This document shows, piece after piece, positions 4,139 to 57,689 of a stretch of DNA of 64,000 nt. The notes beneath the pieces are model-generated. The model did no database searches and was not told the DNA's origin. It saw only the letters and a program-made list of their open reading frames with translations. This DNA comes from Gammaproteobacteria bacterium 42_54_T18 (GTDB lineage: Bacteria > Pseudomonadota > Gammaproteobacteria > Pseudomonadales > Ketobacteraceae), in contig MAAL01000082.1 in assembly GCA_002163245.1 (NCBI GenBank), positions 1,630 to 65,629 on the forward strand. Direction: 5' to 3'. Each line of letters starts with the position of its first letter. Within the stretch, counting starts at the first letter, position 1. The translations under genes and the position numbers were made by a program.

Positions 4139-6462
4139 GAATTCCACCAATTTATTTCACTATAAAACTCAGAAACAGTAGTCTTTAACTGTTCATACAA
4201 ATCCAATAAACCGTCAACGATAGAAGAGTTATTCGTAAATCCGTTAGTCGCAGGAATATCAGCATAAGGTGAATGGATTGATGGCAACTGTTCGGCCCAA
4301 TTTTTACCCGCTTGACCATTTGTCGCTAACTCAACGAAATAATCCAAAGGTTTATATGCACCGAACCATGTAGATGTATTATTGGCGATAAGGTTTCCAT
4401 GCACAGAAAATAGAGAATCAAGTTCCACCGATTCGTGTACTGTATCTTCTTCCCAATAAATCCAACCAATCAAAGAATTAGCTGTATTATATGTTCTTTG
4501 AACCCCTTGGTTTTCAAATCCATAATCAATAAGGTTCGGAGTATCAAATATTGCATCACCGAAAATTTCTATATACGCAGCCTTATTCGTAAACTCGTGG
4601 GATGCCTTCACCCCTAGATCACCAACAGATACAATAAACCCCGGTGGGGAATAACCTATAACGCGAGTACCAACTACATCAGCTCCAAAAGTATAAGGTG
4701 AAGATGGATCAACATAATTTTCTGGCAGATCATCTAATATCGTCAAAACACGATAACGTTCGTTAATCATAATTCCAGTATCAATTTCAATACTGCCGCT
4801 TGCACTCTCAACTCGCAGTTGAGCCGAAGAGTTTATAACGTAACCGTTATAAGTACTTGTTGCTATGCCGATATAAGAACCTGCGACTATGGATATCTGA
4901 TTAGCAAATTCGCCCTCCATGGTGACATCACCTTGATCACCCGCTTTAACATAATAGGGGTTAATATTTTCGAAGGAAACGGATGCAACTTCAATTCGAT
5001 CTGCAATAATATGGGCAGAACCATCTTGCGGAAAAATCACAGAATGGTCGCTAGTTTCCACGTCAAATCCCAACTTATAGAATATTCCCATTTTTGCGGG
5101 ATTGTGATAACGAGAAGATTCCAATGATGAATAATTTATCATGTCCTCTACTTCAAAGTCCCTAGAGATATACGGTGTCCTTGAGCCATTTCTAACAACA
5201 TCAGTTTCTGACTCTAACCTAATTGTATTGGCCTTCATCAACCCTCCATACTGGTTGGCCAATAGTTCTTCACTCCACACCTCTAAATTAAGCGAAGCGA
5301 TAAGTTCACCTTCATTAAACACCTTGCCACCAGCAACGCTCAGGTAATCACTGTTCACATTGGCATAATTCCGAATAGAACCCTCAGCAATAATTGTCAC
5401 CGCAGGAGCATCAACATTCACATCCTCATAACCCAAGACTACATCTTCTGTGGACTTCAGTTGCACACGGCCATCTGAAAGTAGGTCACCCAATACACTC
5501 AACGACTTATAACCAAAGGTTTGAATATCAATCTTCTCAATGGGCACATGCACCGTGTCTTTATAGTTAACCGACGACAATAGATCCGTGCGAGTATCAA
5601 CCTTAGTATTTACCTCTAAGTTTCCAGTTGAAGCAATTTTTAGCCCTGCCGCTTTAATCACGCCCCCCAAGACATAGGTGCCATTGTAAGCGCTTAACGA
5701 TATAATTTGATGGTTGTCATAATTCCAGGTGATGGGCCCCAACAAAAGGTCAACTCCACCAGTTCCCACAACAAGGTCTCCATTAAGATCATTTTTGTAA
5801 CCACCGTTGGCATCAACCACCACCCGTTGATTTAGTTCAACATCGCCATTCAACGATAAATTATTCGAGACGATATCAACACCGATACTGCCCGCTGCAG
5901 TTAGATTCGAAATGGAGATAGAGGATGCGAATGAAGGCGTTAGGTTACCAATGACAGCAACCTCTTCCGTCAATTCATTATCCGGGGTCGCTGTAACTAA
6001 ACTCAAACGATAAACATTCTTGAAGTTACAGTAATTACAACTAATACTACCCTCGCCACTTGTGGATAGAAATAGCACATCTCCAGCAGAACCCATTAAC
6101 TCGATAGTGTTATTAATCTCGATGGTATCGGCGATAATTACTATCAGTTTGGCGGGACGAATAGCTACACCGCCATCGTCTCCACCAGAATTTACTAAAC
6201 CTGCCACGTTAATTAGATTTAGCTGTCTATCATCGACGGCAAATTGCGAAAAATAGTTAATGGATATGCCTGCACTATTGGGAGGGCTGAGACTTAATAC
6301 ATCAACTCCACTGGTTGAGGCATTGAATAACTGTATATCAGTATCAATAGGCATGATTGTGGACGCAACGCCACCTGCGGGGTTCAGAATGAACAGAAAA
6401 GCCCCCATTAGGAGCGCCAAGAGGCGTTCTGTTTTTCTCGGAAAGGTGCGAGTAATACTCAT
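4135..6462 (-). CDS. TpsA-like exported protein with two-partner-secretion domain (filamentous haemagglutinin family)
   Basis: About 775 aa. The signal peptide has a basic N-region (RTFPRKTER), a hydrophobic core and a likely cleavage after GGVAS. Residues about 35-170 resemble the haemagglutination-activity/TPS domain: a GISxNxFSQFxVD stretch followed by a beta-rich segment and a Cys pair (SCNYC, C142/C145), which aligns with the ITCxGCGF motif of TpsA proteins. The classical NPNGI before that pair is not conserved here. The rest is irregular beta-helix-like sequence with no toxin module. It forms an operon with the following two genes, with 4-bp overlaps at both junctions. ATG at 6462 is chosen because AGGGA precedes it and the signal peptide starts there; the reading frame is open to 6522. 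No TpsB/CdiB transporter is in the window. Confidence 0.75.
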   Translation of the reverse strand: MSITRTFPRKTERLLALLMGAFLFILNPAGGVASTIMPIDTDIQLFNASTSGVDVLSLSPPNSAGISINYFSQFAVDDRQLNLINVAGLVNSGGDDGGVAIRPAKLIVIIADTIEINNTIELMGSAGDVLFLSTSGEGSISCNYCNFKNVYRLSLVTATPDNELTEEVAVIGNLTPSFASSISISNLTAAGSIGVDIVSNNLSLNGDVELNQRVVVDANGGYKNDLNGDLVVGTGGVDLLLGPITWNYDNHQIISLSAYNGTYVLGGVIKAAGLKIASTGNLEVNTKVDTRTDLLSSVNYKDTVHVPIEKIDIQTFGYKSLSVLGDLLSDGRVQLKSTEDVVLGYEDVNVDAPAVTIIAEGSIRNYANVNSDYLSVAGGKVFNEGELIASLNLEVWSEELLANQYGGLMKANTIRLESETDVVRNGSRTPYISRDFEVEDMINYSSLESSRYHNPAKMGIFYKLGFDVETSDHSVIFPQDGSAHIIADRIEVASVSFENINPYYVKAGDQGDVTMEGEFANQISIVAGSYIGIATSTYNGYVINSSAQLRVESASGSIEIDTGIMINERYRVLTILDDLPENYVDPSSPYTFGADVVGTRVIGYSPPGFIVSVGDLGVKASHEFTNKAAYIEIFGDAIFDTPNLIDYGFENQGVQRTYNTANSLIGWIYWEEDTVHESVELDSLFSVHGNLIANNTSTWFGAYKPLDYFVELATNGQAGKNWAEQLPSIHSPYADIPATNGFTNNSSIVDGLLDLYEQLKTTVSEFYSEINWWNS

Positions 6463-51896: not shown

Positions 51897-54032
51897 ATGC
51901 GTCGAATCCTCACTGTTTGGTTTGTTGTTATGTTATTTCCTAGTGCAACAATCAGTTTTGCTGAAGTACCGGTATTAGAGGTGCCACCGGAAAACCCTAT
52001 ATCTGAGGAAAAACGGTTATTAGGTAAAGTGCTGTTCTGGGATGAGCAATTGTCCAGTGACAATACCGTTGCTTGCGGTACTTGCCACATCCCCTCAGCG
52101 GGTGGTGCAGATCCACGGATAGCGGTTCACCCTGGTGCAGATTTAATGTTGTTTAGCGATGATGATGTGCTGGGTTCATTTGGTGTTGTGAAGCGAGATG
52201 AATTTAATCAGCCAGTCATTGATTCAGTATTTGGTACTGAACAGCAGGTTACTGGGCGTTCCGCCCCCGCATTCTTTATGGGCATTTTTGCTGAGAGTAA
52301 TTTTTGGGATGGTCGTGCTGGCCCGCAGTTATTTGACCCGTTAACCCCCGAAACCTTGGTAATAAGTGATCACGGATCTTTGGAAAACCAAGCGCTAGGC
52401 CCAATTTTGAGTAGTGTTGAGATGGCACATCAAGCACGAACCTGGCAGCAGGTAACGGACAAATTATTGCAAGCGACGCCACTTGCTTTGGCTTCGAATG
52501 TTCCTAGTGATGTGATGTTGGGGTTGTTTGAAAGCCCTACCTATCAACTTCTGTTTGCGGCAGCTTTTGGTGATGAAAATATAACGCCAGTACGTATTGC
52601 GATGGCGATCGCCAGTTATGAGCGCACCCTAATTCCTGATCAGTCTCCTTGGGATCTGTATGTGGCCGGTGATGCTGCTATGACCGCACAACAAATTGAA
52701 GGTTGGGAGCTATGGGAGCAAGAGACGGTTTGTGATAACTGCCATAAACCACCACTGTTTACTGATAGCCAATTTTATAATATTGGACTACGACCTGGTG
52801 AAGAAGATAGTGGGCGTCAGCAAGTTACCGGTGTTCAAGATGCGGTGGACTTTTATAATGCAGAAACAAATGATACCGGACATCATCAGTTTACGGCGGA
52901 CCAGTCGTCTATACCGACTCAAAATGGTGACGGGGTAGACTATGATACATTGTCAATGTTTGGTGCATCTGCTGAAAAGCAGGCGGTCATTGTGGATTTT
53001 ATGGCTAACGCATTAACTGACCCTAGGGTTGCCGCCGAAACGTTCCCGTTTGATCGGCCAACGTTAAAAAGTGAGCGTATACAGAATACTGATCTTAGTA
53101 GTGAACTAAAAATGCTGACTTATAACGTCTCATCAGCGGACTGGACGAGTGTTCGAGCAGATCAAGTGGCGGAAGTGATTCGTAGCATTAATGCTGATGT
53201 AGTAGGTGTTCAAGAGGCGATGAATGATCAACAAGATGATTTGGAAAGTCGGCTTGCCGATGTTTATGATTTTTACCGTTTTGGCGTGGATAATAGCGAC
53301 CCGATTTTTGTTAAAAAAGGACTGTTTACGTTGATTAAAAGTGGTGAGGTGGCTACCACGGTGGATTGTGGTAGTACGCGATATTTGAATTACTTAATCC
53401 TGGAGCTGGTGCAAAGTGAGCATTGGTTGGCATTTTATAATCAGCATTTTTGCGCAACGGTAGGCGGTAGCAATATTGAAGAAAATCAGCAGCAAGCGAT
53501 TGAATTAATAAATTTAGTTGCCGACAATCTTTTATTGTATCCGGCGTCGAATATCATTGTTGGCGATTTTAATGCGGCTGTTAGTAGTGATACCGTTCAA
53601 TTTCTAATTGAGTCCCAGTCATTACCTAATGGTGCAATCAATCCGTTGTTCCTTGATGATAGTTGGCAAACCGCATTAAACGACAGTGCCGATAAACCGG
53701 TGCCCATTGATTGGATTTTTCATACGCCTTATAACGTCATCGTTAATGCAGCCGACGTTTTTGAAAATGAATTAACTGATGTCGCCTCAGATCATTTGCC
53801 CCTTACCGCAATGGTGCAGATTTCTTACACCTATGTTGTTGCCAACGTTGATGAAAGTGTAGAAGATGGTGCTGAAGAGGGAGCTGAAGAGGGCGAGGAG
53901 GATACAAATACCAGCGAGGAAGTACCAGATTCATCTGAAGGGTCAAGTGGTGGCAGTCTTTCTTTGCTCGTGTTATTTTTATTGGCGATTTTTGTACGAA
54001 GGGGGCACAGCCTTAGGCATAAAGATTGGTAG
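51897..54032 (+). CDS. Diheme cytochrome c peroxidase fused to EEP nuclease domain, GlyGly-CTERM-like tail
   Basis: 711 aa with four parts. (1) Signal peptide (residues 1-22). (2) MauG/CcpA-like diheme peroxidase, about 30-385: RLLGKVLFWDEQLSSDNTVACGTCHIPSAGGADPR, NFWDGRAG, second heme CDNCH and FYNIGLRPGEED. (3) Endonuclease/exonuclease/phosphatase-like domain, about 395-640: LKMLTYNVSSADW, VVGVQEAMN (Glu), VGDFNA and SDHLPL. (4) Acidic linker, then SSGGSLSLLVLFLLAIFVRRG, a GlyGly-CTERM pattern (Gly-rich, membrane helix, Arg). Such tails mark rhombosortase substrates sent through type II secretion. No frameshift is seen at the domain join. This pairing is unusual to me. Confidence 0.85.
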   Translation: MRRILTVWFVVMLFPSATISFAEVPVLEVPPENPISEEKRLLGKVLFWDEQLSSDNTVACGTCHIPSAGGADPRIAVHPGADLMLFSDDDVLGSFGVVKRDEFNQPVIDSVFGTEQQVTGRSAPAFFMGIFAESNFWDGRAGPQLFDPLTPETLVISDHGSLENQALGPILSSVEMAHQARTWQQVTDKLLQATPLALASNVPSDVMLGLFESPTYQLLFAAAFGDENITPVRIAMAIASYERTLIPDQSPWDLYVAGDAAMTAQQIEGWELWEQETVCDNCHKPPLFTDSQFYNIGLRPGEEDSGRQQVTGVQDAVDFYNAETNDTGHHQFTADQSSIPTQNGDGVDYDTLSMFGASAEKQAVIVDFMANALTDPRVAAETFPFDRPTLKSERIQNTDLSSELKMLTYNVSSADWTSVRADQVAEVIRSINADVVGVQEAMNDQQDDLESRLADVYDFYRFGVDNSDPIFVKKGLFTLIKSGEVATTVDCGSTRYLNYLILELVQSEHWLAFYNQHFCATVGGSNIEENQQQAIELINLVADNLLLYPASNIIVGDFNAAVSSDTVQFLIESQSLPNGAINPLFLDDSWQTALNDSADKPVPIDWIFHTPYNVIVNAADVFENELTDVASDHLPLTAMVQISYTYVVANVDESVEDGAEEGAEEGEEDTNTSEEVPDSSEGSSGGSLSLLVLFLLAIFVRRGHSLRHKDW

Positions 54033-56116: not shown

Positions 56117-57610
56117 CTAAAAGACTCCCCGATAAGATAATGCTTCAGTGATATGATGTTTCTCAATGTTGGTTGTGTTTTCTAAGTCAGCCAGTGTTCT
56201 GCTGACTTTTAACACGCGATGATAAGCCCTTGCCGATAGCCCCATTTTATCCGCGGCACGCTCAATAAATCGTTGATTATCAGGCGACAATTGACAATAT
56301 TGCTCAACTTCCTTGCTGCTCATGTCGTGGTTAGCTTTTCCGGTTCGTTGGATTTGCTTTTGCCGAGCTTGCTCGACTCGTTGACGGATCGCTGCGCTGT
56401 CTTCTCCTTGGGCACTTGGTTTATTTAATTGAGAAAGCGGTACAGCATCAATCTTGAGATGGATATCAATACGATCCAGTAATGGGCCAGATAGTTTTGA
56501 TTGATAGCGGTTACAGCATGCGATAGGGTTTGTGCAACCATCACTGGGTTTTTCTGGGGTTCCACAAGGGCATGGATTCATTGCCGTTAGTAGCTGGAAA
56601 TTAGCGGGATACTTTACCTGCCTAGCTGCCCGTGATATTGCAATTTCGCCAGTTTCCAATGGCTCGCGTAAAACCTCTAAAGCCTTTCGGCCGTATTCTG
56701 GCAATTCATCCAAAAATAAAACACCATTATGTGCAAGGGAAATTTCGCCAGGTTTTGGGTTGCTGCCACCACCGGCAAGTGCAACCCCAGACGCGGTGTG
56801 ATGTGGCGTACGAATAGGTCGAATATTCCAATCGAGTGTTTCATTGGAAAGGGCGATAGATTGTATTGCTGCAACTTCTAACCGTTCTTTTTCTGTCATG
56901 GGTGGCAAAATTCCAGGCAGTCGTGCGGCTAACATGGATTTTCCTGCACCTGGAGGGCCGATCATCAATAAATTATGTTTTCCAGCCGCCGCCACTTCTA
57001 ATGCTCTCTTTGCCTGATGTTGCGCTTTGACATCAGACATGTCGGGAATGTTTTGTGCTTGAACTATTGTTGTTGAAGGCTCTGTTGGATCTAAAACAGT
57101 TTTCTTTTGTATGTGAGCACAGACTTGAAGTAAATGTGTGGCTGCAAATACGGTGACGTTGCTAGGTAATGTCGCTTCTTTTGCATTGGCGTATGGAACA
57201 AAGAGTGCCCGCGATTCCGATCGTGCGGCAATAGATGCCGTTAGACTGCCAGTGACGGGGCGTAAATCCCCAGAAAGCGCGAGTTCACCAATAAACTCAA
57301 GTGTGCTTAACGGACTGCTTTCAATTTGATCGGAAGCGGCGAGGATACCTATGGCGATGGGCAAATCAAATCGCCCTCCGTCTTTGGGTAAATCTGCAGG
57401 TGCTAAGTTGACGACGATACGTTTCGAGGGAAATTCGAACTCGGAATTAATAATGGCAGAACGAACTCTTTCTTTGCTTTCTTTAACGGAGGCGTCAGGT
57501 AACCCAACAATAGAAAAACCCGGTAGACCATTGGAAAGGTGAACTTCAACGGTAACGGCTGGAGCGTCCATTCCGACGCGGGCTCGAGAGTGAATGATGG
57601 CCAGGCTCAT
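56117..57610 (-). CDS. comM: YifB/ComM family Mg-chelatase-like AAA ATPase
   Basis: 497 aa. N-terminal ChlI-like domain (AIIHSRARVGMDAPAVTVEVHLSNGLPGFSIVGLP), Walker A GPPGAGKSMLAARLPGILP near residue 215, FRTPHHTAS-type motif (here IRTPHHTASGVALAGGG), Walker B LFLDELPEYGRKALEVLREPLE, and the C-terminal chelatase-like domain. ComM is a hexameric helicase that promotes branch migration in natural transformation. ATG at 57610 is preferred; the frame is open to 57652. Confidence 0.92.
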   Translation of the reverse strand: MSLAIIHSRARVGMDAPAVTVEVHLSNGLPGFSIVGLPDASVKESKERVRSAIINSEFEFPSKRIVVNLAPADLPKDGGRFDLPIAIGILAASDQIESSPLSTLEFIGELALSGDLRPVTGSLTASIAARSESRALFVPYANAKEATLPSNVTVFAATHLLQVCAHIQKKTVLDPTEPSTTIVQAQNIPDMSDVKAQHQAKRALEVAAAGKHNLLMIGPPGAGKSMLAARLPGILPPMTEKERLEVAAIQSIALSNETLDWNIRPIRTPHHTASGVALAGGGSNPKPGEISLAHNGVLFLDELPEYGRKALEVLREPLETGEIAISRAARQVKYPANFQLLTAMNPCPCGTPEKPSDGCTNPIACCNRYQSKLSGPLLDRIDIHLKIDAVPLSQLNKPSAQGEDSAAIRQRVEQARQKQIQRTGKANHDMSSKEVEQYCQLSPDNQRFIERAADKMGLSARAYHRVLKVSRTLADLENTTNIEKHHITEALSYRGVF

Positions 57611-57689
57611 AAAGTGTCTTCTATTGAGGTGAGTGTTTTTAATAGAAGACAATAATTACATAAGAATTTTCTGCTTTTTACTATTTTAT

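Follow-up and report, generated by a model that had tools for sequence, protein, structure and literature searches.

A gammaproteobacterial gene that joins a MauG-like diheme domain to an EEP domain, with a conserved segment missing from its heme half

We analyzed an ORF in a 64,000-nucleotide stretch of contig MAAL01000082.1 from Gammaproteobacteria bacterium 42_54_T18 (positions 1,630 to 65,629, hereafter the window), the source genome being a single draft of 199 contigs. The ORF starts with ATG, contains no internal stop and encodes a protein of 711 amino acids (Table 1), in agreement with its preliminary description as one uninterrupted frame. A Pfam scan detected the CCP_MauG domain (PF03150) with 119.3 bits (gathering score 25.6) and the endonuclease/exonuclease/phosphatase (EEP) domain Exo_endo_phos (PF03372) with 54.3 bits (gathering score 24.5), indicating that a peroxidase-type and an EEP domain are present in one protein, as had been proposed.

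Table 1. Features of the fusion gene and their positions in the window
Feature	Position	Strand	Basis
Fusion gene, 711 aa: signal-peptide-like start, MauG-like diheme domain, EEP domain, acidic linker, GlyGly-CTERM-like tail	51897..54032	+	Pfam/NCBIfam; L079 alignment, residues 1-668
Hydrophobic signal-peptide-like N-terminus, residues 1-22	51897..51962	+	Sequence reading alone
CCP_MauG (Pfam), residues 38-260; heme 1 motif CGTCH, residues 60-64; Trp137 within FWDGRA	52008..52676	+	Pfam, motifs
Heme 2 motif CDNCH, residues 279-283	52731..52745	+	Motif reading
Location of the 30-residue gap (VTGV, residues 310-313); single ACCGGTGT copy	52824..52835	+	Alignments
Tyr320, at the MauG Tyr294 axial-ligand position	52854..52856	+	Alignment via L079
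Exo_endo_phos (Pfam), residues 407-633; N410, E440, H517, D557, N559, D605, D632, H633	53115..53795	+	Pfam, motifs, L079
Acidic Ser/Thr/Glu-rich linker, about residues 651-681	53847..53939	+	Sequence reading
Gly-Gly tail: SSGG, hydrophobic stretch, basic end; GlyGly-CTERM-like	53940..54029	+	TIGR03501 scans, reading

Searching genomes of the phylum with the EEP half as query identified a second copy of the fusion, L079. This 900-amino acid ORF lies in the single-contig genome G719, which belongs to the class of the window but to another family, and it matches residues 1-668 of the window protein with 41.7% identity (E 4e-171) and an identical domain order. L079 contains a 30-residue segment that is missing in the window protein and, in addition, TSP_3 repeats ahead of its tail. 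The joining of two genes by an assembly error, which the preliminary description had named as one possible refutation, is ruled out by this recurrence of the fusion in a single-contig genome.

To determine how widespread the fusion is, genomes were searched with the EEP half and with an alignment of the junction (A1), the junction searches covering genomes of the Pseudomonadota-level groups of the window. The EEP half matched 4 of the 390 genomes of the order and 6 of the 398 genomes of the phylum (source genome included in both counts); neither the genus (4 other genomes searched) nor the family (10 others) gave a further match. The junction alignment matched 3 of 152 genomes of the family of G719, 7 of 295 of its order, and 7 of 369 of the class. 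Only the source genome and G719 were matched over the whole junction and the EEP domain in these 1,604 genome-searches, a number that includes some genomes more than once and is based on an initial filter that may miss distant cases. Domain search and distribution, two of the checks named in the preliminary description, confirm the architecture and give it two carriers. The remaining matches are located in frames of 261 to 521 amino acids, and that of L094 is confined to the peroxidase end of the junction alignment. The longest of these frames, L099 in G1154, was considered as a third fusion and rejected: it matches columns 31-103 of the junction alignment (E 7e-4), and its 521-amino acid frame has no CxxCH motif and only EEP-type domains according to Pfam. 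Among the matches listed for 97 genomes of the genus of G719, searched with residues 1-688 of L079, the best after G719 itself is a partial heme-domain match (E 2e-22). Two long frames with a diheme match, L113 and L015, were also rejected as fusions, having two CxxCH motifs in the parts seen and no EEP domain by eye. L113 (in G891) is another architecture with such a diheme domain, in which a 500-residue N-terminal part precedes the diheme domain (CxxCH motifs at positions 526 and 758 within the 986-residue part seen). The EEP half matched no plasmid record, none of the 180 plasmid records matched by the full protein covered 80% of it, and a scan of viral contigs with the junction alignment gave no match. 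We found no description of such a fusion in the open-licence PMC literature. Altogether, the fusion is an uncommon, new architecture built of known parts.

The N-terminal half shares with the bCCP/MauG diheme family (CcP, MauG, MbnH, BthA) the CCP_MauG domain, two CxxCH motifs, and the Trp of FWDGRA (Trp137), which we take to have an inter-heme role. It differs from this family in the C-terminal EEP domain and tail, and in the absence from the window copy of a segment that we refer to as PSLRN...HxG. The NCBIfam models for the TTQ maturase MauG (TIGR03791) and for MbnH (TIGR04039) scored 92.1 and 95.7 bits on the window protein, far under their cut-offs of 443.85 and 362.85, respectively. In alignments, the L079 equivalent of Tyr320 falls on position 294 of MauG chain 3rn1, and CcP chain 4aal has a Met at the corresponding place. 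Tyr294 is described as the axial ligand of MauG, with Met or His at this position in CcPs (Leptospira paper, PMC7567364), and BthA, which also has a Tyr, is reported to turn H2O2 into water (PMC6405878). Because a Tyr ligand occurs in both MauG and BthA, the diheme chemistry could be either a MauG-like oxidation or the reduction of peroxide. The term peroxidase used in the preliminary description is too narrow in the classical CcP sense, a label that we dropped because Tyr320 occupies the distal-ligand position. By sequence, the diheme half is placed in a branch that has a Tyr where MauG has Tyr294 and that is found mostly in Planctomycetota and Acidobacteriota. A protein of the same branch from Catenovulum adriaticum (WP_268077238.1, annotated as cytochrome c peroxidase) is 45.0% identical over residues 33-393 and has the PSLRN segment; unlike the window protein it has 560 amino acids, no EEP domain seen, and a C-terminal part with a hydrophobic stretch and a basic end. 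The gene for this C. adriaticum protein (locus L105) is located on a 647-kb plasmid and adjoins a gene for a family 16 glycosylhydrolase (GH16).

Eight catalytic-type residues of the EEP domain (listed in Table 1) are invariant between the window protein and L079. These residues (N, E, H, D-x-N, D, D-H) presumably have metal-binding or catalytic roles. Five similar residues are named for the nuclease ExeM (PMC6085458). A degenerate EEP domain without its His and Asp, the other weakness that had been foreseen, is ruled out by the presence of the eight residues in both copies. The EEP halves of the two proteins are 31% identical and match with 110 bits, compared with 63 bits for the next EEP domain found. 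Like the ExeM/Xds nucleases, the window protein has these EEP residues, and in both a linker and then a Gly-Gly tail come after the EEP domain. However, the N-terminus of ExeM consists of a lamin-tail domain and a nucleotide-binding-like stretch where the window protein has a diheme domain, and Pfam detected no lamin-tail domain in the window protein at E values up to 1. Membership of the ExeM/Xds group is ruled out by this differing N-terminus. ExeM itself is described as a sugar-unspecific endonuclease that needs Ca and Mg or Mn (PMC6085458).

Alignment with relatives showed that the window diheme domain lacks 30 residues around position 308-313, a location that is ambiguous owing to a repeat and that two alignments put a few residues apart. 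The missing PSLRN...HxG segment is located between heme 2 and the distal-ligand Tyr, and it is present in the rows of all 40 relatives that reach it: 38 of 38 aligned rows (36 loci of the contig scan described below, L079, and L094) and 2 loci outside this alignment, L056 and L057, in which it reads PTLRN. L055 and L059 stop short of it. Within the segment, L, N, L, and G are invariant in the 38 rows, 37 rows have the P and 36 a further G, and a similar segment is found in MauG chains and in 5 CcP-type chains (1iqc, 9qdt, 4aal, 4aao, 3o5c). The window protein retains 81 of 89 near-invariant positions, and 6 of the 8 losses fall inside the gap, so that 81 of 83 are kept beyond it; by comparison, 5 intact relatives differ at 3 to 6 of 89-91 such positions. 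This conservation outside the gap suggests that the loss is recent or that the remainder of the domain is still constrained. In L094, which is a relative of the window gene and not its ancestor, the 8-bp direct repeat ACCGGTGT is present at both ends of the segment, at a distance of exactly 90 bp; the window gene contains it once. Repeats of 8 bp at a spacing of 60-150 bp occur in the L094 gene in 2 of 122,486 position pairs. The repeat flanking the segment makes a 90-bp in-frame loss in the window copy by slippage between short direct repeats likely. Because a conserved segment is missing, the peroxidase half of the window protein is probably impaired; the EEP half looks intact. AlphaFold models were of low confidence (mean pLDDT 53.6 for L021 and 51.3 for the window protein) and were discarded, an effect of the segment not being visible in them.

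A contig scan identified 39 loci with relatives of the peroxidase half, mostly from Planctomycetota and Acidobacteriota and some from Verrucomicrobiota, Eisenbacteria, and Pseudomonadota. The match extends to window residue 386-412 in 37 of these loci, to 253 in L055 and to 220 in L059, and a search of their frames with the EEP half gave no match at E 1e-8. When the C-terminal ends of 37 loci were compared, L055 was cut by the contig, L023 had three residues, and all the others had different sequences; beyond the heme region of L022, L024, L036, L037, and L042, Pfam detected FlgD_ig, FG-GAP, fn3, or nothing over the cut-off. By these comparisons the peroxidase branch is modular, with a C-terminal part that varies by lineage and for which the EEP domain is one option. 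Two further arrangements were seen among the relatives: L033, on a Planctomycetota contig, consists of two tandem copies of the peroxidase branch (frames at 4641 and 6634), and the L055 contig carries, besides the peroxidase relative, two frames with 13 CxxCH motifs each. L094 (in G1126, which belongs to the class of the window) has 54% identity to window residues 1-436 and then continues with a different sequence until the contig end, before which no EEP domain was found. In a tree of 39 rows, the window protein groups first with L094 (99/95) and then with L079 (94/90, under the tree tool's star). The window peroxidase half is thus nearer to that of L094, which shows no EEP domain ahead of its contig end, so that a single origin of the fusion requires an exchange in L094. 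The EEP label needs two changes on this tree, and two separate fusions are a possible alternative. The EEP halves of the window protein and L079 are nevertheless by far each other's best match, and for this reason we favour a single fusion followed by an exchange in L094.

The preliminary description had also recognized a GlyGly-CTERM-like tail. The model TIGR03501 (cut-off 15.5 bits) matched the window tail, starting 28 residues ahead of the stop, with 15.9 bits (E 0.27) in a whole-genome scan and with 11.5 bits in a scan of the whole protein, so that the assignment is borderline by this model. Ten tails in the source genome are above the cut-off, including that of the window protein, and 1 of 14 control genomes has any above it. 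Nine of the ten reach within 30 residues of a stop; for the tenth (L077), no frame in the matching orientation was obtained. The source genome also encodes a rhombosortase (144.8 bits, cut-off 84, contig C30; a score exceeded by 0 of 14 control genomes at that cut-off), and a type II secretion system, as judged from the secretin GspD as its one marker (575 bits, cut-off 351.35, contig C141; 2 of 14 controls over). TIGR03501 was absent from the model matches listed for the L079 protein; by eye its tail consists of Gly-Gly, a hydrophobic stretch, and RRR. In V. cholerae, the protein VesB has been shown to reach the surface by way of rhombosortase and type II secretion (PMC6219818). For ExeM, which is an EEP nuclease and has a GlyGly-CTERM-type tail, a location almost exclusively in the cytoplasmic membrane fraction is reported, and deprivation of rhombosortase had no major effect (PMC6085458); in view of these findings on ExeM, surface display of the fusion protein is not assured. 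Extracellular nucleases are mentioned as proteins with the tail in the paper that defined GlyGly-CTERM, and the words peroxidase, heme, and cytochrome do not occur in its main text (PMC3237569).

We consider it somewhat better than an even chance, judging from sequence, that the gene encodes an exported, likely surface-located two-domain enzyme in which the EEP half works and the peroxide chemistry of the window copy was lost or altered after the 90-bp loss, with a single fusion as the probable origin. From homology and motifs, the pre-protein would be exported by Sec, hemes would be attached to both CxxCH motifs in the periplasm, the Gly-Gly tail would be cut by rhombosortase, and type II secretion would place the protein on the cell surface by a VesB-like route. 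The EEP domain would be a phosphodiesterase that depends on metal ions, with extracellular nucleic acid or some other phosphate ester as its most likely substrate. In L079, which is intact, a Tyr-ligated, peroxide-using diheme domain of the MauG/BthA kind would be tethered to this activity, and the window copy would have kept the EEP activity with its peroxide chemistry gone or changed. The fusion would probably have occurred once in Gammaproteobacteria-type relatives of the class, between an EEP domain and a peroxidase branch whose C-terminus is often exchanged, and would have been followed by patchy spread or loss.

Three other explanations are less probable. Retention of both CxxCH motifs, Trp137, Tyr320, and 81 of the 83 near-invariant positions outside the gap, together with a frame that stays open for about 400 codons past it, would fit a window protein that tolerates the loss and has two active halves, its diheme domain performing an altered chemistry or simple electron transfer beside the EEP domain. 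We regard this as unlikely, since the lost segment contains four positions that are invariant in 38 of 38 rows and a similar segment exists in MauG chains and in the five CcP-type chains. The same conservation, a gap located at a direct repeat, and the reliance on one draft genome of 199 contigs would fit a sequencing or assembly error, the real gene being intact like L079. This is still less probable: as a matter of general knowledge, a repeat of 8-12 bp is short for an assembly collapse, and only one third of errors would keep the frame by chance. A decaying remnant without function in the source genome is very improbable, given an ORF that is otherwise open and in which the EEP catalytic-type residues and the tail are intact, although the core deletion and the absence of EEP-half matches from the 4 genus and 10 family genomes searched point in that direction.

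Beyond the preferred reading of an exported enzyme with a working EEP half, the diheme centre, Tyr-ligated and possibly bis-Fe(IV)-forming, and the EEP nuclease might act on one target as a surface enzyme that is intact in L079 and whose heme half is being lost in the window copy. We hold this to be doubtful; if true, extracellular nucleic acid, for example, would be oxidised and then cut, or the nuclease would be switched by peroxide. The coupling of H2O2 chemistry to the cleavage of DNA or phosphate esters suggested in the preliminary description is weakened for the window copy, whose diheme domain is missing a segment that the rows of all 40 relatives reaching it contain, and appears less likely there than in L079. 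The intact L079 and the window copy without this one segment provide a natural comparison pair for the function of PSLRN...HxG in the MauG-like family, and the same pair bears on whether heme and phosphodiesterase chemistry are coupled.

A Mg-chelatase ATPase gene, which we take to be of the comM/yifB type, lies near both fusions. It is located about 2.1 kb downstream of the fusion gene in the window (56117-57652, reverse strand) and directly upstream of the fusion gene in G719 (L101:3483-5009, forward strand), possibly reflecting an insertion hotspot or common synteny.
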